Shown piece after piece: positions 35,881 through 52,701 of a DNA stretch of 64,000 nt. Source of the DNA: Paenibacillus thiaminolyticus (GTDB lineage: Bacteria > Bacillota > Bacilli > Paenibacillales > Paenibacillaceae); assembly GCF_007066085.1 (NCBI RefSeq), contig NZ_CP041405.1, forward strand, positions 4,295,001 through 4,359,000. The letters are read 5' to 3'. Positions within the stretch are counted from its first letter, which is position 1. Each line of letters opens with the position of its first letter. A model generated the notes under the pieces. That model was not told the origin of the DNA. It searched no databases and saw nothing but the letters and a program-made list of their open reading frames with translations. The translations under genes and the position numbers were made by a program.

Positions 35881-37038
35881 TTATTTTGGGTTGACATATT
35901 TATATGCTCCACTGTGGTGAATTTCTGCACTGACCTTGATCGAGGCGATGGACTCGGGGGTAAGGCGAATATCTTTTCCGTTGCCGAGCGCTTTCCACAG
36001 CGTCAGCTTTTTGCGGTATACCTCGTTTTTCAAGTTATAAATATCAATGCCATCCTCTAATCCCTTCTCGAATGTTTTCCGGATATCCTTTTCGATTTTG
36101 TCGTTCAGCATACGGCGGAGCTTCGCAAGCGGCACATTTTCCAGCATTTCATCGAGATGTCCGGACACTTTCAGTTTGATGTGAAAGACGGGCTGATTGT
36201 TTTTCATCGATACTTGGATCCGGCTCTTCGGATAATACATCGACAGGACAGCGTCTGGCTTGCGTTTATTGCCGACGACGACGGGCGTGCGCGCCGTTGT
36301 CCTTGTCAGCCAGCGCAGGCCCATCAGATCTCTCCATGACAACCATTTTTTATGCTTGCCGTTCACGAGGATATAAGCCCCGTTGAGTAAGTACTGTCCG
36401 CTCGGCTTCCCATTCTTGACCCATTGCGTGTCTTGCGTGATCAGGGACGGGAGGATAATGGCAGAGTTGGGCTCTCCCAGCTCCGCCGCCATCTTCTGTA
36501 ATTGAATCGGGGCGATGAAGGAGCTCTGTTGATACACCTCCTCCGGGTGATGAAGCAGAGATGTGATCGGCGATATATTGAACACATTCGTAACCGACAA
36601 CAGCTTGTCCAGGGGCTCCTTCGTCCCGAATACCCACGGCGTATACCGGACTTCCCGGTATCTCCGCAGCGCGTCCAACATATGATTGACATTATGCTTC
36701 ATCGCTCTCTCCGTAATAATAACGGCGGATGTGTGCTCGAACAGGACGCGCAGCGGGGAGGCGTTGTAGATGGCATTAATGGCCATCTCCAACGTGTAGC
36801 CCGTCGCGCGTCCAACCCAGATCGGAGCGGGCTCAGCCGATTTGGTCTCTTGCTTGGCGACGTTCATGAAGTCGAGCGATTGCGTGTAGATGACGTATTT
36901 CCCGCCCTCGTAGTCGATCCCGATGGCCGCGATATAGTTCATGTCCTGAATATTTTTGGCATCCCAGCAGCCGGGCAGACCGACAAGAATCACTGCCGCG
37001 AGCGGGAGGATGATAACCTGTTTCCATCTAGCGTTCAT
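35881..37038 (-). CDS. Ger(x)C family spore germination lipoprotein (receptor C subunit)
   Basis: A 385-residue lipoprotein with lipobox LPGC (Cys24) directly followed by the family hallmark WDAKNIQDMNYIAAIGIDYE. Three GerC domains can be followed, ending in the HHSGAYKYVNPK tail. It is the outer lipoprotein subunit of a germinant receptor in the spore inner membrane. It starts 1 bp after the gerA stop and ends the minus-strand operon. Confidence 0.93.
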   Translation of the reverse strand: MNARWKQVIILPLAAVILVGLPGCWDAKNIQDMNYIAAIGIDYEGGKYVIYTQSLDFMNVAKQETKSAEPAPIWVGRATGYTLEMAINAIYNASPLRVLFEHTSAVIITERAMKHNVNHMLDALRRYREVRYTPWVFGTKEPLDKLLSVTNVFNISPITSLLHHPEEVYQQSSFIAPIQLQKMAAELGEPNSAIILPSLITQDTQWVKNGKPSGQYLLNGAYILVNGKHKKWLSWRDLMGLRWLTRTTARTPVVVGNKRKPDAVLSMYYPKSRIQVSMKNNQPVFHIKLKVSGHLDEMLENVPLAKLRRMLNDKIEKDIRKTFEKGLEDGIDIYNLKNEVYRKKLTLWKALGNGKDIRLTPESIASIKVSAEIHHSGAYKYVNPK

Positions 37039-37039
37039 C

Positions 37040-38518
37040 TCAAGAATCGTCCCCTTTTCTCGTGTTGTCCTGCTCTCTCGTCAGATAAGAGGGACGGTAC
37101 TTGTCCATATTGAGCGGCACGCGGAGCAGCGCCTTCCACATGTCTCTCCATTGGGGCGGCGATACGGGGGCAAGATACGGAATGCCGTAAGACATTATCG
37201 ATGATAAATAGAGCAAAATGGTCATTACGGCCAGGAAGAAGCCGAACATGCCCAGCAGCGAGCTGGCCAGCAGCACGCCCAGCCGCAGCACGCTAACCGT
37301 TCCGCTCAGAGATTGGTTGATAAGCGTGAATGTTGCGACGGCTGTGACCGCCGCGACGACCAGCGTCGTCGGAGAAGCCAGCCCCGCACGAATCGAGGCG
37401 TCTCCCACGATGAGGCCGCCGACAACTGCCAAGGTTTGGCCTACCGCCTTCGGCAAGCGAATGCCGGCTTCACGGAATAATTCGAACATGCCCAGCATGA
37501 ACAGCAATTCCATCGTCGCCGACAACGGGAGGCCAGTCCGGGTATTCGACACGGTCGCCAGGAGCGGGAACGGAAGCTGCTCCACATTGTAGGCGGTAAG
37601 GGCAAGCCAGAAGCCGGGAGTGAAGAGAGAGATGATCAGACCGCTTAAGCGGATGATGCGCTGGAGCACCACGAAGAACACCGGGAAATGGATATCCTCC
37701 GGCGACTTCAGCAGCAGCCACAGGCTGGAAGGACCGATAAGCGCCATAGGCGATCCGTCGACGAGAATGACGAATCGGCCTCTGCTTAACGATTCGACCA
37801 CATAATCGGGGCGTCCGATGTAATCCATCAGCGGGAACATGGAATAATTGGAGTTCAGCATCAATTCACCCAGTTGGGAGCTGCCGACGATGATATCGGT
37901 GTCAATCGAGTAGAGCTGCTTCCTTACGGTATCGACCAGATGTGGCCGAATGACATCCTGCATGTAGAGCAGTCCGACCTCGGTCTGCGAGCGCCTGCCG
38001 ATAATAAACGTTTCGTAGTTCACTGACTGGGTGCGAAGGCGCTTGCGGACGAGCGCCACATTCGTGGCCAGATTCTCCGTAAATCCATCCTTTGGACCTT
38101 TGATGGAAACTTCCGTATTGGATTCTTCCGGCTGCCGCTCTGGCCGCTCGCAAATATCGATGAAGTAGACTTCATTGTCGCCATGCACATAGACAAGCAG
38201 CTCTCCAGCGAACAGCTTCCGTTCCATCTCTATCAATCCTGCCCCCGGAGGCAAAGGAAGCAGAGGGATGAGCCGGTTGCGGCTCACCGCTTGGGAGACG
38301 GAGGAGGCCTCTTGCAGCATGCGATGCAGCGCCGGAACGACAGCCTGGTTCAACTGCTTCATATCGGTGAGCCCGGAGCAGTAGATTAAGGTGATCTGGA
38401 ACGTCCTTTCCGCTGAACCGAATTCGTAGTTTTCTGACTTGATATCGGAGCATTCCGCGAAATAATCGTGAATGACTTTGAGCGTAAGCGGAGTAGGGGA
38501 TGACGAATTGGCGCCCAT
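37040..38518 (-). CDS. GerA family spore germination protein (receptor A subunit)
   Basis: A 492-residue A subunit. The cytoplasmic N-domain (about 1-240) holds the conserved IKGPKDGFTENLATNVALVRKRL segment. VILVDGSPMALIGPSSLWLLLKSPEDI leads into the membrane domain of four or five helices, with the signature RTGLPLSATMELLFMLGMFELFREAGIRLPK. Together with gerB and gerC it forms a nutrient receptor; A subunits of this family assemble as ligand-gated ion channels. It lies 16 bp after gerB. Confidence 0.94.
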   Translation of the reverse strand: MGANSSSPTPLTLKVIHDYFAECSDIKSENYEFGSAERTFQITLIYCSGLTDMKQLNQAVVPALHRMLQEASSVSQAVSRNRLIPLLPLPPGAGLIEMERKLFAGELLVYVHGDNEVYFIDICERPERQPEESNTEVSIKGPKDGFTENLATNVALVRKRLRTQSVNYETFIIGRRSQTEVGLLYMQDVIRPHLVDTVRKQLYSIDTDIIVGSSQLGELMLNSNYSMFPLMDYIGRPDYVVESLSRGRFVILVDGSPMALIGPSSLWLLLKSPEDIHFPVFFVVLQRIIRLSGLIISLFTPGFWLALTAYNVEQLPFPLLATVSNTRTGLPLSATMELLFMLGMFELFREAGIRLPKAVGQTLAVVGGLIVGDASIRAGLASPTTLVVAAVTAVATFTLINQSLSGTVSVLRLGVLLASSLLGMFGFFLAVMTILLYLSSIMSYGIPYLAPVSPPQWRDMWKALLRVPLNMDKYRPSYLTREQDNTRKGDDS

Positions 38519-38534
38519 AGTTGCAGCCTCCTTG

Positions 38535-39641
38535 CTATAAATCTTTGGGGCGCGGCTTCGTGCCGCGCCGGGAACGGAACCAGCTCATCAGGAACAGGAA
38601 CAGGGACAACAGGAGAAAGATTGCTGTCGTTCCAGGCAAAAAGAAGATTTCGAGAAATTTGAAAAACAGCATATCGTTTAGGTGCAAATTGACGGCAATC
38701 AGCAAGGTCACTCCCGAAAATATGCACATGAGCAGCCGGTGGTACAGTGACTTGAGCGGAAGCAGCTCCACGATCAGAAAGACCATGAACGAAATGCGGA
38801 TAAACGCGCCCGACATCCATTGATAAATGGACAGAAAATCGATATGTTCGATATATTTGCTGACCGTAACCAATCTCCACTGCTCGAATGCCGGGTAACG
38901 GATGTTGGCCGCTTCCTTGATGCCGAAATTCGTAATCGAGCCAATAAGCGGCCCTATTGTCAACCCGCATAAAATAAGAGCAAGCACAGCGAGTCCCCGG
39001 AAGCGGGGCGTCTTGGAAATCCGGTGCTGGATAAGAAGCAGGAGGAACAGTTCGGCCAAACCCGCTCCGATGTACACCGTTCCGCGAACCACCGGCATAT
39101 ACCCGTGCTCGAACAGCGGGAACATTAAGGAGTAGTCTTTGTATCTGGCATTGGCGAACATGATGAAGTATCCGAACAGGACGACAAACGGAAGCAGGAT
39201 CCCCGAACAAATGGCAATGGATCGAAGCCCGGCTAGTGCCCCGAAAATACAGAGAAGCAAGAGCGATACCGTAATAAGGAAAAAGGGGGTCTGCGGCAAA
39301 TACGATGTTTTGGCCCAGTTCGCGGTATCCTTCACCGTGACAAACGCGCTGATCCATAGGTACAGCCCAACAATGGCCGTGACGCACCAGGCAACCGCCG
39401 GGCCGAAGGTAGCCTTCATCCAAGGGAACAAGGCCTGCTGTCCCTTGGCCTTCATCAGCCTCTGGAGCAAGGGTATCCAAGCCAGAACGATAAGCGCCAG
39501 CATAATAACGCTCAACCATCCGTCACGGCCGGCTTGCTGAAGCATGAGCGGAATAATGATGACATGATTCAGTAAGCCTGTTGACAGCATCATGATGAAG
39601 CAAAGCTGCAGATAGGTGATAAACTCAGATCCGCGGTTCAT
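38535..39641 (-). CDS. GerAB/ArcD/ProY family endospore germination permease (receptor B subunit)
   Basis: A protein of about 368 residues with ten membrane helices, of the amino acid/polyamine permease-like GerAB family, which carries the germinant-binding pocket. It opens MNRGSEFITYLQLCFIMMLSTGLL. The ATG at 39641 is chosen because AAAAAGG lies 9 nt upstream; the ATG at 39650 abuts that site. It is the first gene of a gerB-gerA-gerC operon, an order different from the second receptor operon at 48.7 kb. Confidence 0.92.
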   Translation of the reverse strand: MNRGSEFITYLQLCFIMMLSTGLLNHVIIIPLMLQQAGRDGWLSVIMLALIVLAWIPLLQRLMKAKGQQALFPWMKATFGPAVAWCVTAIVGLYLWISAFVTVKDTANWAKTSYLPQTPFFLITVSLLLLCIFGALAGLRSIAICSGILLPFVVLFGYFIMFANARYKDYSLMFPLFEHGYMPVVRGTVYIGAGLAELFLLLLIQHRISKTPRFRGLAVLALILCGLTIGPLIGSITNFGIKEAANIRYPAFEQWRLVTVSKYIEHIDFLSIYQWMSGAFIRISFMVFLIVELLPLKSLYHRLLMCIFSGVTLLIAVNLHLNDMLFFKFLEIFFLPGTTAIFLLLSLFLFLMSWFRSRRGTKPRPKDL

Positions 39642-39746
39642 GGAGATCATCCTTTTTGGGTCTGATTGACATCCTTAGAATGAGCAGGCAAGGAAAAAAT
39701 TAATCATAAAGCGGAAAAAGCTATAGCCAAACCGGACGGTTCCGGC

Positions 39747-39830
39747 TATAATACAGCTAAATAACTTAAAGGCAATGCTACCGGACAGGTACAACCTCGT
39801 GATTTATCGCGCTGGCTGTGCCTTTTTTTG
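39747..39830 (+). ncRNA. Candidate structured leader RNA (copy 1) upstream of cyclomaltodextrinase
   Basis: After a -10 (TATAAT, 39747-39752; weak -35 TAGCCA 17 bp upstream) comes AAAGGCAATGC (39768-39778), a hairpin TACC/GGTA (39779-39791), CAACC (39792-39796), a hairpin CGTGA/TCGCG (39798-39811) and TGCC plus seven T. AAAGGCA can also pair with the final TGCCTTT. The layout matches copy 2 at 41683. It ends 58 nt before the gene, so it could act as an attenuator. Confidence 0.45.
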
Positions 39831-39887: not shown

Positions 39888-41663
39888 ATGTTAAGGGAAG
39901 CGGTGTATCATCGTTCCAAGCAAAATTGGTCGTATGCCTATGATTGCGAGACGATTCATCTCCGGCTCCGCACGAAGCGGGATGATGCCGTCAAGGTGGA
40001 AGCGATCGTGGTGGACAAATATGCGTTCAAAGATTCGACAGAGTTCATTCCGATGCATATTTTTGCTTCGGATGCCTTGTTCGATTATTGGGAGGCTGCG
40101 TACCGTCCGCCATACCGGCGGCTGCGCTACGCGTTCCGAATTCAGGGCAAGGACGAGCAGGTGTATTTGACGGAACGCGGCTTTTTCGAGGACCTGCCTT
40201 GGGATTACTTCGAATCGTTCGAGTATCCGTTCCTCCATCCGCACGATATGTTCGAAGCGCCTGCGTGGGTGAAGGAGGCCGTCTTCTATCAGATTTTCCC
40301 GGAGCGGTTCGCGAACGGCGATCCAGCCAACGATCCGGAGAAGACCGAGGAATGGGGCGGGGAACCGAAGCCGGGGAATTTCTTCGGCGGCGACCTGCAA
40401 GGGGTTCTGGATCATCTGGATTATTTATCGGAGTTGGGCATTAATGCCATTTACTTCACGCCGGTCTTCGAAGCGACGACGAACCATAAGTATGACACGC
40501 GGGATTATTTGAAGGTGGACAGGCATTTCGGCACGAATGAAAAGCTGAAGGAATTGGTCGAGGCGTGCCATGAACGGGGAATCCGGGTTCTGCTGGATGC
40601 CGTGTTCAATCATGCCGGCCGGACGTTTCCTCCATTCGTCGATGTGATGGAGAAGGGGAGCGAATCTCCGTACGCGGACTGGTTCTATGTGAAAGACTAT
40701 CCGCTCCGCGTCGTGGACGGCAAGCCGACCTATGAGACGTTCTCCTTCGAGCCGCTGATGCCGAAGCTCAATACGAGTCATCCAGAGGTGAAGCGGTATT
40801 TGCTGGAGGTGGCGAGATATTGGGTAGAGGAGATCGGCATTGACGGCTGGAGGCTGGATGTGGCCAACGAGGTCGATCATCAATTCTGGCGCGAATTCCG
40901 GCAAGTCGTCAAGCAAGCAAATCGTGACGCCTATATATTGGGAGAAATATGGCATGATTCGATGGCGTGGCTGCAGGGGGACCAGTTCGATGCCGTCATG
41001 AATTACCCGTTCACGGATGCGGTGTTGAACTTCTTCGCCCGGCAGACGACAGATGCCCGCGTATTCGCGGATTCCATCGGGTCGATACTGGCCAGCTATC
41101 CGCAGCCAGTGACCGAAGTGTCCTTCAATCTGCTCGACAGCCACGATACGCCGCGCCTGCTGACGCTCTGTGAGAGAGACGTTCGTCCGATGAAGCTGGC
41201 GGCGCTGTTCCAGTTCACTTATCCGGGCACGCCTTGCATCTACTATGGAGACGAGATCGGCCTGGAGGGCGGACCGGATCCGGGCTGCCGCAAATGCATG
41301 GTATGGGATGAAGCGGAACAAGACCGCGATCTGTTCGCCTTCTATCAGCGCATTATCGCGCTTCGCCGCAAGCATGAGGCGCTCCGCTCCGCGCGCATTC
41401 GCTTCCTGCATGCCGAAGCGGATGGAAGGACTCTGATGTATGAATTAACAGGAGCCGATGGCAGCTTCTTAATCGCGATGAATGCAGGCGATGCTCCGGC
41501 AGAGCTTCGGCTGGAGACGGGAACGGAAGCAGAGCGTTCATGGTCGCTGGAATATGGAGAAGGCATTCGCATCGATGCCCAGCCAGACATGCTGGAGTTG
41601 GCCTTGGATGGCTTCGGTTTTGCGGTCCTTCATATGAAAAGCGATATTGACAATGCTCAATGA
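39888..41663 (+). CDS. GH13 cyclomaltodextrinase/neopullulanase-type alpha-glycosidase
   Basis: A 591-residue cytoplasmic enzyme (no signal peptide). The N-terminal ~125 residues form a CBM34-type domain. The catalytic barrel shows all GH13 regions: [20 protein letters not shown] (nucleophile Asp near 323), ILGEIWHD (acid Glu near 352) and [11 protein letters not shown] (Asp near 421). Catalytic positions and length fit GH13 subfamily 20 (neopullulanase, cyclomaltodextrinase, maltogenic amylase). It would open and shorten maltodextrins imported by MdxEFG. The ATG follows AAGGGAGTGGG. Confidence 0.92.
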
Positions 41664-41676
41664 AAACGTATATAAT
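41647..41676 (+). promoter_or_regulatory. Consensus promoter of a short RNA
   Basis: TTGACA (41647-41652), 18-bp spacer, TATAAT (41671-41676): both hexamers are perfect. The -35 overlaps the last codons of the upstream enzyme gene. The only thing directly downstream is the hairpin RNA and its terminator. Confidence 0.8.
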
Positions 41677-41682
41677 GCAACT

Positions 41683-41780
41683 AAGCCAGACGACAATTTA
41701 AGGGCAATGCTTTCGGCAGCTTAGCCGAACAACCCCGGTATTCTCTTTGAAGCTTGATTAAAGAGATACCGGGGTTATTT
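41683..41780 (+). ncRNA. Candidate structured RNA (copy 2) upstream of the maltodextrin transporter
   Basis: The predicted ~100-nt transcript contains AAGGGCAATGC (41700-41710), a hairpin TTCGGC/GCCGAA with loop AGCTTA (41712-41729), CAACC (41730-41734) and a long terminator stem AACCCCGGTA...TACCGGGGTT ending in ATTTT. The loop AGCTTA can pair with CTAAGC at 41681-41686 (possible pseudoknot). The core order matches copy 1, while the hairpin stem differs by compensating bases. Confidence 0.5.
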
Positions 41781-41856
41781 TGTATAACGATGTGCCAGCG
41801 AAGCTATTGCCGGATAAGGGGATGATGCGGACGGCAGGGTGTCTTTTGTCCATTTG

Positions 41857-42188: not shown

Positions 42189-43517
42189 ATGAACATGAAG
42201 GGAAGAAAGCTTGGAAGCATGTTCATCGTAATGGTCATGATGTTGTTGATGATTTCGGCGTGCGGACCGCGGGATAGCGGGGCGCCTGCAGCAGAGGAGC
42301 CGGCGGCACAGGGCGAGACCAATGAGACGGCGCCGGGCGGCGAAGCGGCTGGCGACGAGGAGCTTGTTCCTGAGCCGGGAGCGAAGCTGGTCATCTGGGA
42401 AGGTCCGGAGCAGATGGAGTTCCTGGAGACGATGGCCCAGGAGTTCACGGCGAAGTATGACATTCCGGTCGAGATACAGGAGATCGGATCCGGCGAGCAG
42501 ATGGCCAAGGTGAAGACAGACGGGCCGGCCGGGCTTGGCGCTGATATTATGGTGATGCCGCATGATCATTTGGGGGAGGCGGTAGCTGCGGGTCTCGTCA
42601 TGCCGAATGATTTCTATGCGGAAGATACGATGAACAATTTCGCGCCGGCTGCTGTGGAAGCGGTATCATTGGACGGTATCATCTACGGCTATCCGCGCAA
42701 TATGGAGACGTACTTGCTGTATTACAACAAAGACTTAGTGAAGGAAGAAGAGCTGGCCTCATGGGACAGCATCATCGCTTTTGCGAAAAAATACAACGAT
42801 GCGAAGAACAATAAATTCGGGTTCTTGTATGAAGTCAATAACTTCTACTACAACTATGCCTTTATGGCCGGCAACGGCGCTTATGTCTTCGGCAAGAACG
42901 GCACCGATCCGGCCGATATCGGCCTGGCGACGCCGGAAGCGATAGAAGCGTTCCAATTTTTCCAGAGCTTGAACGAAGCGATTCCGATCAAGGCAGCGGA
43001 CGCGAGCGGAGATGTCAAAACAAGTCTGTTCCAGACCGGCAAGCTGCCGATCAATATGGACGGCATCTGGCAGCTGAGCAACTTCACGAAGGAGAAGCTC
43101 GGCTTCGAGGTCGGCGCAGTGCCGATGCCGGCGATGCCGAACGGCAAGGCGCCGAAGCCGTTCCTGGGGGTCAAAGCCTACTTCGTGAGCACCTTCTCCG
43201 AATATCCGAATGCGGCGAAGCTGTTCATCCATCATGTCACCTCTCAGGAAGCGATGGTGAAGAACTACGAGCTGTCAGGCATTATCCCGGCGCGCAACGG
43301 CATGGAGAACGAGCCGGCCATCCAGGCGAATCCGAACGCGCTGGCGTTCCTGGAGCAGTTCAAACACGTGGAGGCGATGCCGTACATTATTGAAATGCGT
43401 TCTGTGTGGGGACCGCTGACCGCCACGCTGGAGCCGATCTGGGATGGCGGCAACGTAGAGGCCATTCTAAAAAAAGCGGTGGAGGACGTCAAAACCGCGA
43501 TTGCCCAACAGGGCTGA
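42189..43517 (+). CDS. mdxE: Maltodextrin ABC transporter substrate-binding lipoprotein
   Basis: A 442-residue binding protein. A signal peptide with lipobox ISAC (Cys25) is followed by an Ala/Glu/Gly-rich linker (about 26-60) and a maltose-binding-protein fold: KLVIWEGPEQMEFLETMAQEFTAKYDIPVEI, GADIMVMPHDHLGEAVAAGLV and YGYPRNMETYLLYYNKDLV. The context (MdxF, MdxG, amylase, MalR) supports maltodextrin as ligand. The ATG at 42189 follows GGGAGAGGGG; the open frame upstream is not translated with any visible site. A stable hairpin separates it from mdxF. Confidence 0.9.
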   Translation: MNMKGRKLGSMFIVMVMMLLMISACGPRDSGAPAAEEPAAQGETNETAPGGEAAGDEELVPEPGAKLVIWEGPEQMEFLETMAQEFTAKYDIPVEIQEIGSGEQMAKVKTDGPAGLGADIMVMPHDHLGEAVAAGLVMPNDFYAEDTMNNFAPAAVEAVSLDGIIYGYPRNMETYLLYYNKDLVKEEELASWDSIIAFAKKYNDAKNNKFGFLYEVNNFYYNYAFMAGNGAYVFGKNGTDPADIGLATPEAIEAFQFFQSLNEAIPIKAADASGDVKTSLFQTGKLPINMDGIWQLSNFTKEKLGFEVGAVPMPAMPNGKAPKPFLGVKAYFVSTFSEYPNAAKLFIHHVTSQEAMVKNYELSGIIPARNGMENEPAIQANPNALAFLEQFKHVEAMPYIIEMRSVWGPLTATLEPIWDGGNVEAILKKAVEDVKTAIAQQG

Positions 43518-47524: not shown

Positions 47525-48547
47525 ATGTCCGTAACAATCATCGATGTCGCCAAGCAAGCGGGAGTCTCTCCTTCGACGGTATCGCGAGTATTATCCAACC
47601 ACCCCCGTATCAGTGCCAAAACGGCACAGCGGGTGCGCGAAGTGATGGCTGATCTCGGCTATCATCCGAACGTGATGGCGAAGAGCCTGGTCTCCAAAGT
47701 AAGCAATACGATCGCCGTGCTGCTTCACCGGCCGGCGGAGGAATTATTTCTGAACCTGTTCTTCTCCGAAGTGATGCGCGGCTTGGTCACGCAAGCGAGC
47801 CGCGCGGGCTTCGATCTGCTGATGACGACGGGAGCGACGGAGCAGGAGGAGCTTGAAGCCATAACCCGGCTGGTCAAGGGCAAGCGGGTTGACGGGGTCA
47901 TCCTGCTCTATTCCCGGCGCAACGACCCGATCGTGTCGTTCCTGGAGGAGCTGCAATTTCCATTCGTCCTTATCGGGCGGAGCGAGGAGCACCCGGATAT
48001 TTTGTCCGTCAATAATGATAATGTGCAGGCCGCCTATGACGCGACCCGCCATCTAATCGATCAGGGGCACCGCCGCATCGGCTTCGTAAGCGGTCCTTCC
48101 AATCTGATGATTTCGAAGGATCGGATGGCAGGATATCAAGCCGCGCTTAAGGAGGCGGGCATGGAAGGCCGGCCGGAATGGATTGTGGAAGGCGAGTTCC
48201 TGCAGGAGAGCGGTTACCGGGCCATGTCGTTCTTCATGAGCCTGCCGGAGCGCCCAACCGCTCTGGTCGCTATCGACGATGTGGTCGCCTTCGGCGTGCT
48301 GCGGGGGTTGATGGAGCTTGGCTACCGCGTGCCGGATGATCTGAGCCTCGTCAGCTTCAACAATATCCCGCTGTCCGAGCTGGCGACGCCGCCGATTACC
48401 TCGGTAGATATCGGCATCTACCAGTTAGGCTATACTGCATCCCAGACGCTTATCCGGTCGATCAAGGGCGAACCGATGCAGCAGCGGCTCATCATTCCCC
48501 ATCGGTTGATTGTGCGCGAATCCTCTTTGCGGATGATTAAGGAATAA
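47525..48547 (+). CDS. LacI-family regulator of maltodextrin genes (MalR-like)
   Basis: A 340-residue LacI/GalR repressor. The N-terminal helix-turn-helix and hinge helix are classic (TIIDVAKQAGVSPSTVSRVLSNHPRISAKTAQRVREVM), followed by a periplasmic-binding-like effector domain (about 60-335). Its place after the amylase gene makes maltose or maltodextrin the likely inducer and the palindromes at 41857 and 42137 the likely operators. AAGGAGGAAGC precedes the ATG. A TATAAT (47471-47476) suggests its own promoter. A strong terminator follows. Confidence 0.92.
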   Translation: MSVTIIDVAKQAGVSPSTVSRVLSNHPRISAKTAQRVREVMADLGYHPNVMAKSLVSKVSNTIAVLLHRPAEELFLNLFFSEVMRGLVTQASRAGFDLLMTTGATEQEELEAITRLVKGKRVDGVILLYSRRNDPIVSFLEELQFPFVLIGRSEEHPDILSVNNDNVQAAYDATRHLIDQGHRRIGFVSGPSNLMISKDRMAGYQAALKEAGMEGRPEWIVEGEFLQESGYRAMSFFMSLPERPTALVAIDDVVAFGVLRGLMELGYRVPDDLSLVSFNNIPLSELATPPITSVDIGIYQLGYTASQTLIRSIKGEPMQQRLIIPHRLIVRESSLRMIKE

Positions 48548-48743: not shown

Positions 48744-50393
48744 ATGTGGAATGCGATAGTGTCCTATTTTCCAAGCTGGGAAATATGGCTGCAGGCCGTA
48801 ATCGGGCTGTGCGTGCCCTATGGAATCTCCCTGGCCGTAAGCAAGAGCAGGCATCCGAATCGGGATCAATCAGAGCAGGAGGACGGAATAACAGACCAGC
48901 CTGCACAGTTTGCCGGGGATCTGCGTGCCGATATGGCGCTGGTTCAGAATCAATTCAGTCATCAGAGCGATGTTTCCATGCGCGCATTTTGTCTCGGCAA
49001 GACAAGCCAGCAGGCGGCGGTTTTTTTCGTCAACGGCATTTCTGATAAGGATTTAATTGAAACTCATATATTGAAATCGCTCATGGGCGATTTGGCGCAG
49101 ATGGAGAGCGGATCGGAAGCCTCCGGCCCGCCGTACTCCAAGACCTTTATTGTGGAGCATGTGCTGGCAGTCAGTACGGTGAAGGAAGCAGACACCTTGG
49201 ACCAGGCCGCCTCCGAGCTGCTGCGGGGCAATACCGTGCTGCTGATCGAACATTATCCGGGCGCCCTCATTCTGTCGACGAAAAAAGAAATTACGCGGGG
49301 CATAGAGGAGCCGCCGTCCGAATTAATGGTGCGGGGACCCCGTCTTGGCTTCAATGAGAGTATTGACGAGAATTCCGCTCTGCTGCGGCAGCATGGCGAC
49401 AACGAGAATCTGGTTCTTGCCCGGATCCGCGTCGGCAAGCGAATTCAGAAGGACCTGCTAATCACCTATATTTCCGATATTGCCGATCCCGATCTTGTGC
49501 GCGAGGTGATGGCAAGAATCAAGCGTCTGGATATGGGTGATATTCAGGATACCGGCTATATCGAGCAGATCGTGGAGGACAACTTCCTGTCTCCGTTCCC
49601 GCAGGTGCAGAGCACGGAGCGGGTTGACCGCGTGCTCGCCGCCCTGCTGGAAGGGCGTGTGGCGCTTATGTTGGACGGAACCCCGTTCGCCCTCATCGTC
49701 CCGGTCACCTTCCATATGCTGCTGCAGAGCCCGGAGGATTATTATGAACGCTGGATGCCCGCCACGCTGCTTCGCATCCTTCGTTATTTCGCGGCATTCA
49801 TTTCAATGTTCGCTCCATCGTTATATATTTCCTTCATCTCCTTCCACCAGGGCTTGATTCCGACGAAGCTCGCGCTGTCCATTGCCGAGACGCGGTCGGG
49901 GGTGCCGTTCCCGGCGCTGATCGAAGCATTGATAATGGAAGTGGCCTTGGAAATCTTGCGGGAAGCCGGTCTCAGGCTGCCGAAGCCGATCGGCCAGACG
50001 ATCGGCATTGTCGGCGGCCTGGTCATTGGCGAAGCAGCAGTCCGAGCCGGCATCATCAGCCCGATTATGATTATCGTCGTTGGCCTTACCGCGATATCCT
50101 CCTTTGCGATCCCGCAGTACAACGCCGGCATCACATTGAGGATGCTTCGCTTCGCGGCCATGTTCTTCGCCGCCGTCTTCGGCCTGTATGGCGTCGTGCT
50201 GTTCTTCCTGGCGCTGTGCAGCCATATGGTGAAGCTGAAGAGCTTCGGCATCCCTTATGTGAGCCCTGCGGCGCCCTATCAGATTCAAGATTGGAAGGAC
50301 TTTCTCGTGCGGGCGCCGCTGCGGTGGATGACCCGCCGGCCGAAGATGTTGCACGTCTTGGATAAGAAACGCAAAAAGCAGCAGGAGGAATGA
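48744..50393 (+). CDS. GerA family spore germination protein (second receptor, A subunit)
   Basis: A 549-residue A subunit, longer than the one at 37040. An unusual first hydrophobic segment (WLQAVIGLCVPYGISLAVSKS) and a polar stretch precede the cytoplasmic domain. The conserved core is present: MVRGPRLGFNESIDENSALLRQ, ALMLDGTPFALIVPVTFHMLLQSPEDYYERW and AETRSGVPFPALIEALIMEVALEILREAGLRLPKPIGQTIG. The ATG follows AGGTGATC. It is the first gene of a gerA-gerB-gerC operon. The extra N-terminal helix recalls GerKA-like forms with extended N-termini. Confidence 0.94.
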   Translation: MWNAIVSYFPSWEIWLQAVIGLCVPYGISLAVSKSRHPNRDQSEQEDGITDQPAQFAGDLRADMALVQNQFSHQSDVSMRAFCLGKTSQQAAVFFVNGISDKDLIETHILKSLMGDLAQMESGSEASGPPYSKTFIVEHVLAVSTVKEADTLDQAASELLRGNTVLLIEHYPGALILSTKKEITRGIEEPPSELMVRGPRLGFNESIDENSALLRQHGDNENLVLARIRVGKRIQKDLLITYISDIADPDLVREVMARIKRLDMGDIQDTGYIEQIVEDNFLSPFPQVQSTERVDRVLAALLEGRVALMLDGTPFALIVPVTFHMLLQSPEDYYERWMPATLLRILRYFAAFISMFAPSLYISFISFHQGLIPTKLALSIAETRSGVPFPALIEALIMEVALEILREAGLRLPKPIGQTIGIVGGLVIGEAAVRAGIISPIMIIVVGLTAISSFAIPQYNAGITLRMLRFAAMFFAAVFGLYGVVLFFLALCSHMVKLKSFGIPYVSPAAPYQIQDWKDFLVRAPLRWMTRRPKMLHVLDKKRKKQQEE

Positions 50394-50399
50394 AGAAAC

Positions 50400-51506
50400 G
50401 TGGAGATGGGCAGAGAGCAGGGCATCACGACGCGGCAAGCGGCCGTGTTCATCGTGAACTTTATACTTGGGGTCGGCATCTTGATGCTGCCCCGGACGGC
50501 GGCAGAGAAGGTGCAGACACCGGATATTTGGCTCTCCGTTATTATCGGCGGCTTGCTGGCGATGCTGGCCGGCATCATTATTGTCAAGCTCGGACAGTAT
50601 TACCCGGGCAAGACCTTCTATGAATACAGCGAATTGATTATCGGGAAATGGCTCTCCCAAGTCATCAATCTTATTGTCATCGCCTATTTCATCGCTACAG
50701 CCGGAAATGTCGTGCGTTCGCTGGCCGAAGTGACGGAATTGTTCCTGCTGGATGGAACCCCGCGGTGGGCGATCATGCTGTCCTTCCTGTGGGTCGGACT
50801 GTACCTGATTCTTGGCGGCCTCTTCGCTATTGGCCGATTGTTCGAGATCATTTTTCCAATTACGGTCATAATCTTTGTGTTCACCGCCGCCATGAGCTTC
50901 AAAGTATTCGATATCGACAATTTGCGCCCAGTGCTTGGCTCTGGCCTCACGCCCGTACTGAAGGGCGTCAGGACAACGGGACTGTCCTTCACCGGGTATG
51001 AGATTATGCTCATTTTGCAGGCTTATATGCTTCGTCCTCGGCAAGCGGCCAGAGCGGTGGTGTTCGGGGTGTCCATTCCGATTCTCTTCTATGTAACGAC
51101 GGTCGTGATGGTGATCGGGGCGTTGTCGGTAGAAGGCGCTGTAACCCGCGCGTGGCCCACGATTACATTAATCCGGAGCTTTGATTTTCCGGGTGTTTTT
51201 TTCGAACGGTATGAATCGCTGTTGCTCGTCATCTGGATTATGCAAATTTTTGCAACGTATGTCATTACGCATTATGCAGCGGCTCAGGGGGTGGCGACCA
51301 TGCTAAAAAAAGAGATTGGCCCGATACAGTATGTCATGCTCCCGATCGTGTTCATTGTCGCCATGCTGCCGAAAAATATTGACGATCTGTTCCGGTTCGC
51401 CGGCAATATCGGGAATGCCGGAATCGTGCTGTTCGGCGTGCTGCCCGCCGTCCTGCTCGGGATCGTGAAGCTGCGGGGTGGGAAGCGTGAGCTGGACACG
51501 ACATAG
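50400..51506 (+). CDS. GerAB/ArcD/ProY family germination permease (second receptor, B subunit)
   Basis: A 368-residue, ten-helix B subunit. It opens ITTRQAAVFIVNFILGVGILMLPRTAAEKVQTPDIW, typical of GerAB proteins, and ends with a short basic tail. The GTG at 50400 lies 10 nt after AGGAGG, whereas the ATG at 50406 is 16 nt away, so GTG is preferred. It is 6 bp from gerA and overlaps gerC. Confidence 0.92.
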   Translation: MEMGREQGITTRQAAVFIVNFILGVGILMLPRTAAEKVQTPDIWLSVIIGGLLAMLAGIIIVKLGQYYPGKTFYEYSELIIGKWLSQVINLIVIAYFIATAGNVVRSLAEVTELFLLDGTPRWAIMLSFLWVGLYLILGGLFAIGRLFEIIFPITVIIFVFTAAMSFKVFDIDNLRPVLGSGLTPVLKGVRTTGLSFTGYEIMLILQAYMLRPRQAARAVVFGVSIPILFYVTTVVMVIGALSVEGAVTRAWPTITLIRSFDFPGVFFERYESLLLVIWIMQIFATYVITHYAAAQGVATMLKKEIGPIQYVMLPIVFIVAMLPKNIDDLFRFAGNIGNAGIVLFGVLPAVLLGIVKLRGGKRELDTT

Positions 51507-52701
51507 TTGGAAGACCTCGCTGTCATGTGCGATGATTGCGCTGCTCGTCCTGACGGCCGGCTGCTGGAGCGCAAAGGAGATCGAGGAGTTGGGAATGGCG
51601 GTCGCAACCGCAGTGGATGTGGGCGAGGAGACGATGCTGCAGCAGGGTCTGGAGCAAAAAGGCGGCGATTATCCGAAGAAGAACGTGCTGATGATGACCT
51701 TTCAGGTCGTCGATCCCGGCTACAGCACGGGCGCGGGGACAGGCTCCTCCAGCAAGCAGAAAAATTACACCAATATCTCAATAACGGGAGACTCGCTTTT
51801 TGAGATGACGCGGGAAATCGTATTGAGCCGCGCCCGTCCGATTTTCGGCCAGCATCATAAGGTCATCGTGATCAGCGATAAGATGGCGCGGACTTACAGC
51901 CTTCATAGGCTGCTGGACTTTTTCCTGCGGGAGCAGAAGTTCCGGCCGAGCTGCCTCCTCTTCATCAGCAAGGGAGAGGCCCGCAAGACGCTAGAGCTCA
52001 AAGACAAAACGGATTTCCCGGCCATGCGGCTGAACGGCATCACTAACAACCGGGACCGTAGCAGCCGGCTGCTGCCACCGGTGTCGTTGACGAAGGTCAT
52101 CCCCAAGATGAATACGTCGTCCAGCTTCCTGCTGCAGAATGTCGCTGCGGCGGAAGGGGAAGTCAAGCTAGCCGGGGCGGCGGTCATCTATGGCAAGACG
52201 GGCAAGCTGATCGGATTTCTTGATGAGGAGGAACTGGAGGCCGTTAACTGGCTCACCGGGAAAGTAAAAGGAGGAATCCTCAAGTCTCATGACAAGCGGA
52301 CTGGAGAGGTTATCGCCTACGAAATTATGTCGCTCAAGAGCCATATCCGTTCTCGCATCGACAAGGGCAAGATTGCATTCGATATTCAGATCGAATCTGA
52401 AGGCCGGCTTGGCGAACAGTGGTCTGGCGAAGGCAACAATTTCGACCCCCGGTATCTTCATCAGGTCGAGGCGGATACGGCCGGGCAGATGAAGAGGCGA
52501 ATCGGCGAGATGCTGCACAAGGTGCAGAAGGAGTACCGGGCCGACGTTCTCGGCCTGGGCGATTATGTCCGCATTCATTATCCTCGCATGTGGGTAAAGT
52601 GGAAGCAGGATTGGGATGACATCTTCGCGGATGCCGACATCCGGTACAATCTGAAGCTGGAGGTAAAGGAGTTCGGCACGACGAGCATCCAGGCAAAGTA
52701 A
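51487..52701 (+). CDS. Ger(x)C family germination lipoprotein (second receptor, C subunit)
   Basis: A protein of about 404 residues with signal peptide and lipobox LTAGC (Cys26), followed by the hallmark WSAKEIEELGMAVATAVDVG. An unusual Gly/Ser/Thr-rich insertion (STGAGTGSSSKQKNYTNIS) follows the first strands. GerC core motifs such as SRARPIFGQHHKVIVIS and LAGAAVIYGKTGKLIGFLDEEE are present. Two GTG starts are possible (51478 and 51487); a GGGGTGG just before the second favours it weakly. The gene overlaps gerB and ends at a strong terminator. Confidence 0.92.
   Translation: MSWTRHSWKTSLSCAMIALLVLTAGCWSAKEIEELGMAVATAVDVGEETMLQQGLEQKGGDYPKKNVLMMTFQVVDPGYSTGAGTGSSSKQKNYTNISITGDSLFEMTREIVLSRARPIFGQHHKVIVISDKMARTYSLHRLLDFFLREQKFRPSCLLFISKGEARKTLELKDKTDFPAMRLNGITNNRDRSSRLLPPVSLTKVIPKMNTSSSFLLQNVAAAEGEVKLAGAAVIYGKTGKLIGFLDEEELEAVNWLTGKVKGGILKSHDKRTGEVIAYEIMSLKSHIRSRIDKGKIAFDIQIESEGRLGEQWSGEGNNFDPRYLHQVEADTAGQMKRRIGEMLHKVQKEYRADVLGLGDYVRIHYPRMWVKWKQDWDDIFADADIRYNLKLEVKEFGTTSIQAK

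Follow-up and report, generated by a model that had tools for sequence, protein, structure and literature searches.

Two short RNA elements in a 64,000-nucleotide stretch of the Paenibacillus thiaminolyticus genome (the window) are very probably cis-acting transcription attenuators of a family that has no match in Rfam 15. Copy A lies before an mdxE-like solute-binding protein gene and copy B before a cyclomaltodextrinase-type gene. As far as the sequence can tell, the attenuators probably turn genes for the handling of starch and maltose on when a signal is present. In the proposed mechanism, the 3′ strand of a small hairpin would double as the 5′ strand of an intrinsic terminator. By default the terminator would form and a leader RNA of about 100 nt would be released. 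A trans-acting factor that binds and stabilises the hairpin would block the terminator, and the downstream starch/maltodextrin gene would then be transcribed, which makes the element a presumed ON switch.

All features of copy A lie on the forward strand. Its promoter (41647..41676) consists of TTGACA (41647-41652), an 18-nt spacer and TATAAT (41671-41676), a 12/12 match to the consensus, and the -35 box is located within the end of the cyclomaltodextrinase gene. The 5′ tail AATTTA (41695..41700; consensus AAYUUA), assigned from the conservation of AA at -6/-5, leads into the predicted antiterminator hairpin (41701..41735), which is backed by pattern and covariance-model matches, by covariation and by the presence of its helix P2 in the fold. 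Helix P1 joins 41702-41704 to 41733-41735 and is followed by a CAA/A internal loop and a UG/CA step; C41710 and U41711 are bulged, and P2 pairs 41712-41717 with 41724-41729. The terminator (41731..41782), a stem at 41731-41776 with a T-rich tail taken from the fold, has part of its sequence in common with the 3′ strand of the hairpin. When folded, the segment 41680-41785 reaches -38.6 kcal/mol, with z = -4.87 relative to 200 shuffles, and this fold contains a hairpin at 41712-41729 and the terminator stem at 41731-41776. The promoter, hairpin and terminator of the original prediction, which lie at 41647-41782, are thus borne out by the promoter match and the z score. The prediction had also counted a long stem among the core elements. 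This stem is present, but it is the terminator, and because some of its nucleotides also make up the 3′ side of the hairpin, the two structures cannot form together. The RNA of about 100 nt predicted earlier is in all likelihood the terminated leader of copy A. The proposed pairing of the loop AGCTTA with an upstream CTAAGC is present in the window yet not conserved across four same-genus relatives, in which the site reads CTAAGC (L011), CTAAGA (L012, L014) and CTATGA (L013). The first gene after copy A is the mdxE-like gene (42189..43517, forward strand; open reading frame with Pfam SBP_bac_8 and SBP_bac_1), with 406 nt between the end of the T-tract and its start. In the spacer/-10 region of promoter A, ATGAAAACGTATAT at 41660-41673 agrees in 13 of 14 letters with the cre consensus WTGWAARCGYWWWC, as quoted in PMC9981650. 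Through this putative cre, catabolite repression may act on promoter A as well.

The second copy of the core, which had been noticed upstream of the cyclomaltodextrinase gene with a TACC/GGTA stem, was recovered at 39769-39797, again on the forward strand. A candidate promoter with TAGCCA, a 17-nt spacer and TATAAT (39724..39752; 10/12 consensus match) is the probable promoter of copy B. The tail AACTTA (39763..39768), assigned from sequence and conservation, precedes the predicted antiterminator hairpin (39769..39797), which is a pattern match and a covariance-model match (E 2.2e-6) with the core AAGGCAATGC-TACC-GGACA-GGTA-CAACCT. Here, P1 comprises 39770-39772/39795-39797, and P2 is formed by TACC (39779-39782) and GGTA (39788-39791). 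In the putative terminator (39787..39829), AGGTACA of the hairpin can pair with TGTGCCT, followed by seven T. A simple terminator scan listed none at copy A or copy B; the terminators were assigned from folds and T-rich tails, that of copy B by reading the sequence. An AAAGGCA/UGCCUUU pairing was considered as a general terminator; it is possible in copy B and impossible in the AGGG subtype of the element, and therefore not general. The gene 3′ of copy B (39888..41663, forward strand) is an open reading frame of the GH13 cyclomaltodextrinase type with Pfam Alpha-amylase and Alpha-amylase_N.

The core pattern has exactly two matches in the 6.6-Mb genome, both in the window, and the reversed pattern has none. 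A covariance-model search of the whole genome returned the same two copies (E 2.2e-6 and 0.0016), followed by matches at E 3.2 and 7.9. The Rfam comparison that had been suggested found no Rfam 15 family at or above gathering score in the 64-kb window or in 20 element-bearing loci. Lax Rfam scans gave sub-gathering matches only, mostly of animal microRNA models to the terminator stem of copy A.

Searches of other genomes indicate that copies A and B are members of an RNA family that recurs widely in Paenibacillaceae and Bacillaceae. Among 60 relatives the pattern is present in 8, and among 392 genomes of the order in 68; read in reverse as a control, it matched 1 and about 16 of them, respectively. 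With a looser pattern allowing C or U at position 10, it was found in 150 of 394 genomes of the family, among the matches listed; the reversed control of this pattern hit about 57 of 394, and therefore about a third of these genomes are perhaps due to chance. A scan for the AGGG subtype in one genome per species (84,980 species) returned 35 stretches, 28 of them in Bacillales (Paenibacillus, Cohnella, Gorillibacterium, Oceanobacillus, Ornithinibacillus, Shouchella, Aquibacillus, Paucisalibacillus and Bacillus sp.); the seven outside Bacillales resemble chance matches. The search of relatives with covariance models, also proposed at the outset, yielded further matches upstream of carbohydrate genes. 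Model R1 matched 12 of 398 genomes of the class at E 0.05, with three loci (L054, L055, L058) resembling chance. Model R2, built with the position-10 variants included, matched 37 of 318 genomes in the order of genome G563 at E 0.01. Among 29 R2 loci viewed, 24 precede a cyclomaltodextrinase, amylase or nucleotidyltransferase gene, and five resemble chance (L263, L266-L269, where L269 equals L268 when turned). At the level of the phylum, 7 of 279 genomes matched at E 0.001, four of them from the window's own family; outside the class, L274 and L276, both before cyclomaltodextrinase genes, are credible, and L275 resembles chance. The families of G485 (3 genomes) and G089 (104 genomes) gave nothing new when searched.

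For a closer comparison, at least 184 instances, distinct by their flanks, were fetched from part of the pattern matches of the order and family scans. A T-tract within 95 nt was required, which 162 of the 184 have; the other 22 were dropped before counting. Five of the dropped instances precede a cyclomaltodextrinase gene and are probably genuine. Removal of L137 and L148 as chance matches left 160 instances, 128 of them unique. At L150 (Cohnella xylanilytica) a second copy, AGGGCCATGC...CAACCC, lies on the strand opposite the amylase element; it has a complementary GGGGTTGTT arm and is without a T-tract.

The consensus of about 40 nt, AA-Y-UUA-A-RGG-CAA-UG-(Y)-[U..P2..A]-CA-A-CCY, describes a 3-bp P1 (RGG/CCY), a CAA/A internal loop, a UG/CA step, a variable P2 and a conserved 5′ AA tail. 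The closing R/Y pair of P1 is kept in all 162 T-tract instances (113 A-U, 49 G-C), and the same positions are unpaired in 5 of the 22 instances without a T-tract. P2 reaches at least 4 bp in 120 of 130 unique sequences, whereas 500 shuffles gave 8.6 such sequences on average and 18 at most. In alignment A3, comprising 33 sequences picked for a longer upper stem, the covariation score is 0.444 versus 0.144 (sd 0.020) after shuffling, slid partners reach at most 0.206, and single P2 pairs are seen as C-G, U-A and G-C. Alignment A2, with 80 of the 116 sequences remaining from the 128 after removal of near-duplicates, scores 0.302 versus 0.154 shuffled. Two of five measures, pairs changed on both sides and further pair types, showed no excess over shuffles in A2 or A3. 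The comparisons and the covariation support the earlier suggestion of a family of regulatory RNAs in which conserved single-stranded blocks surround a covarying hairpin. A tree of 100 cyclomaltodextrinase proteins shows one change of the P1 pair type and eight changes at position 10; the 162/162 count therefore reflects few events repeated across gene families. Likewise, part of the invariance of the core letters stems from the search patterns, in which they are fixed.

The model matches reveal more relaxed forms of the element, with the internal loop CAC in L250, L253, L256, L259 and L278, CUA in L254 and L273, and CCA in L052 (identical to L113). In L274 and L276, both outside the class, the P1 pair is A.C. 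The copies of clade f68 (L257, L258, L260-L262, L264, L265) have no bulge, and their stem continues as UGUAC/GUACA, which makes this clade a useful natural variant for structure probing. AA occupies -6/-5 in 137 of the 160 instances; at the remaining upstream positions of the scan the count is 6 to 31. Nine copies of the esterase type are without the AA tail (L067, L069-L072, L074, L075, L078, L216); they start almost at the -10 box, and in L067 and L078 a GNAT-like gene lies close behind the esterase gene.

The overlap seen in copy A recurs across the family. In minimum-energy folds of the hairpin together with the sequence behind it, four to six of the six nucleotides of CAACCY, with which the hairpin ends, are paired into the terminator in 120 of the 128 unique instances (73 of 81 in a first count), as opposed to 26 of 128 with the downstream stretch shuffled; none of the six joins the terminator in 6 of 128. 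Median energies over the 128 unique instances are -6.1 kcal/mol for the hairpin alone and -21.45 kcal/mol for the terminator, and the hairpin is the more stable structure in two of them. Since hairpin and terminator are mutually exclusive, the element is best described as an attenuator, and since the terminator is far more stable, transcription would stop by default (OFF). As in riboswitches, a conserved structured leader RNA is combined with an expression platform.

According to their best protein matches, the genes behind the 160 T-tract instances encode cyclomaltodextrinase (97), mdxE-like binding proteins (18), AAC(3)-family acetyltransferases (17), secreted amylases or pullulanases (12), esterases (9) and MATE exporters (2). 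A gene kind was thus recognised in 155 of 160, and the remaining five, to which no kind was assigned, include L193, located before an ABC exporter gene. The model matches add a third MATE gene (L280) and two nucleotidyltransferase-fold genes (L242, L249). Gene-family names of single representatives were taken from Pfam and NCBIfam; the L242 product carries Pfam NTP_transf_2 and Polbeta, and the AAC(3)-like protein scored 207.5 bits, where NCBIfam sets its cut-off at 270. Genome G030 carries the element four times, upstream of two cyclomaltodextrinase genes, of mdxE and of a MATE gene. The proposed link to maltodextrin genes therefore holds for most collected copies but not for those preceding AAC(3)-family, esterase, MATE and nucleotidyltransferase genes: unrelated genes have the element in common, and not all of them concern sugar. 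In tying resistance-like enzymes (AAC(3)-like, nucleotidyltransferase, MATE) to a carbohydrate regulon, the element offers a lead on their natural role.

As to what reads the RNA, we lean slightly towards a small molecule rather than a protein, because a single compact fold with a conserved tail is found before unrelated genes, and no partner gene was observed to accompany it. If a small molecule is read, a sugar from maltodextrin or starch breakdown is its most likely identity, as the majority of the genes concern starch and maltodextrin. In its most specific form, a natural riboswitch of about 40 nt would bind an unphosphorylated sugar (glucose, maltose or a short maltodextrin) and switch on starch import and cleavage, which we put forward tentatively and consider unlikely in exactly this shape. 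If true, the task of the AAC(3)-like acetyltransferase, nucleotidyltransferase and MATE exporter would be to alter surplus or look-alike sugars or to remove them from the cell. With about 40 nt and one internal loop the RNA is easy to make and probe, and sensing of a plain sugar by RNA is therefore directly testable.

A protein reader is a strong competitor, if short of an even chance. In that case an antiterminator protein outside the BglG/LicT type would bind the hairpin RNA and would itself sense the sugar. The overlap of a hairpin of about 30 nt with a terminator corresponds to the layout of RAT sites, as described in PMC1489936 and PMC9981650, and P2 is free to vary with conserved loops around P1, like a protein footprint. 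However, inspection of 22 loci by eye revealed no recognisable RNA-binding regulator gene next to the element, and 13 of 46 carrier genomes, each at least 90% complete, have no match to the best-known candidate domain, CAT_RBD (PF03123), the sole RNA-binding family scanned. LacI-type DNA-binding regulators do occur near the element in the same 22 loci.

Against both of these readings, a trans-acting small RNA ending at its own terminator, as the original prediction had considered, is very improbable. Copy A has its own promoter, a predicted length of about 100 nt and a strong terminator, and it lies 406 nt before mdxE. Yet the copies precede genes, a recognised gene kind following 155 of the 160 T-tract instances, and they share nucleotides with a terminator that consumes the conserved hairpin, which would be needless for a stable small RNA. 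The classical RAT site, a target of BglG/SacY/LicT (CAT-PRD) antiterminators tied to the sugar phosphotransferase system, is a very improbable identity for the element. Size and terminator overlap are alike and the CAT domain is present in 33 of 46 carriers, but the 13 carriers without a CAT_RBD match exclude a BglG/LicT-type protein as the general partner, most collected targets are genes of the ABC or hydrolase kind and not of the phosphotransferase system, and the RAT sequence differs in both internal loops. Finally, ribosome-mediated attenuation by a leader peptide starting at the AUG of GGCAAUG is scarcely credible: an AUG does follow a purine run in most copies, but peptide lengths are scattered, motif lengths are even across the three frames (47, 43 and 40 of 130), no conserved short open frame was found in the leaders, and the AUG-less GGCACUG copies, i.e. 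the five loci with a CAC loop, precede the same gene kinds.

Returning to the attenuator, with either a small molecule or a protein as its factor, the comparisons argue that the antiterminator RNA family is real, combining a familiar logic with a new sequence. The preQ1-class riboswitches are small transcriptional switches with a compact fold and a conserved A-rich tail, and they compete with a terminator. The element resembles them in all these respects, but its tail is on the 5′ side and its consensus is unlike any Rfam model. ANTAR targets require two hairpins with hexaloops, whereas the element is a single hairpin whose loop varies in length and letters. Rfam malK motifs lie before maltose genes; the element, too, is found before maltose genes but no Rfam motif reaches gathering score in the window or in the 20 loci scanned. 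Vsr217, which is linked to maltose-transport genes (PMC8265627), likewise lies before maltose genes but is a Vibrio small RNA made from a 5′ UTR. In ANTAR target RNA, an antiterminator excludes a terminator (PMC3369936). RAT sites, where a hairpin overlaps a terminator, follow the same antitermination logic (PMC1489936 and PMC9981650). Like them, the element is a short hairpin, imperfectly paired and interrupted by internal loops, that lies towards the 5′ end of the leader, overlaps the 5′ arm of a terminator and precedes sugar genes. Unlike them, it has loop sequences that deviate from the RAT consensus, and its targets are mostly ABC-transporter and hydrolase genes. A description of the element was not found in the open-access literature among the matches listed, which covered titles and the starts of abstracts. 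At their term matches, genome-wide RNA discovery papers and a terminator survey gave no amylase or maltodextrin context.

The control of starch and maltodextrin genes is known mainly through DNA-binding regulators, and the element would add an RNA layer to it. In the window, a LacI-type regulator gene (47525-48547, an open reading frame assigned by eye) comes after the mdx and amylase genes and is likely a second layer of control. The maltodextrin operon is flanked by two clusters of spore-germination (Ger-type) receptor genes, at 35881-39650 and 48744-52701, recognised by eye from their open reading frames.
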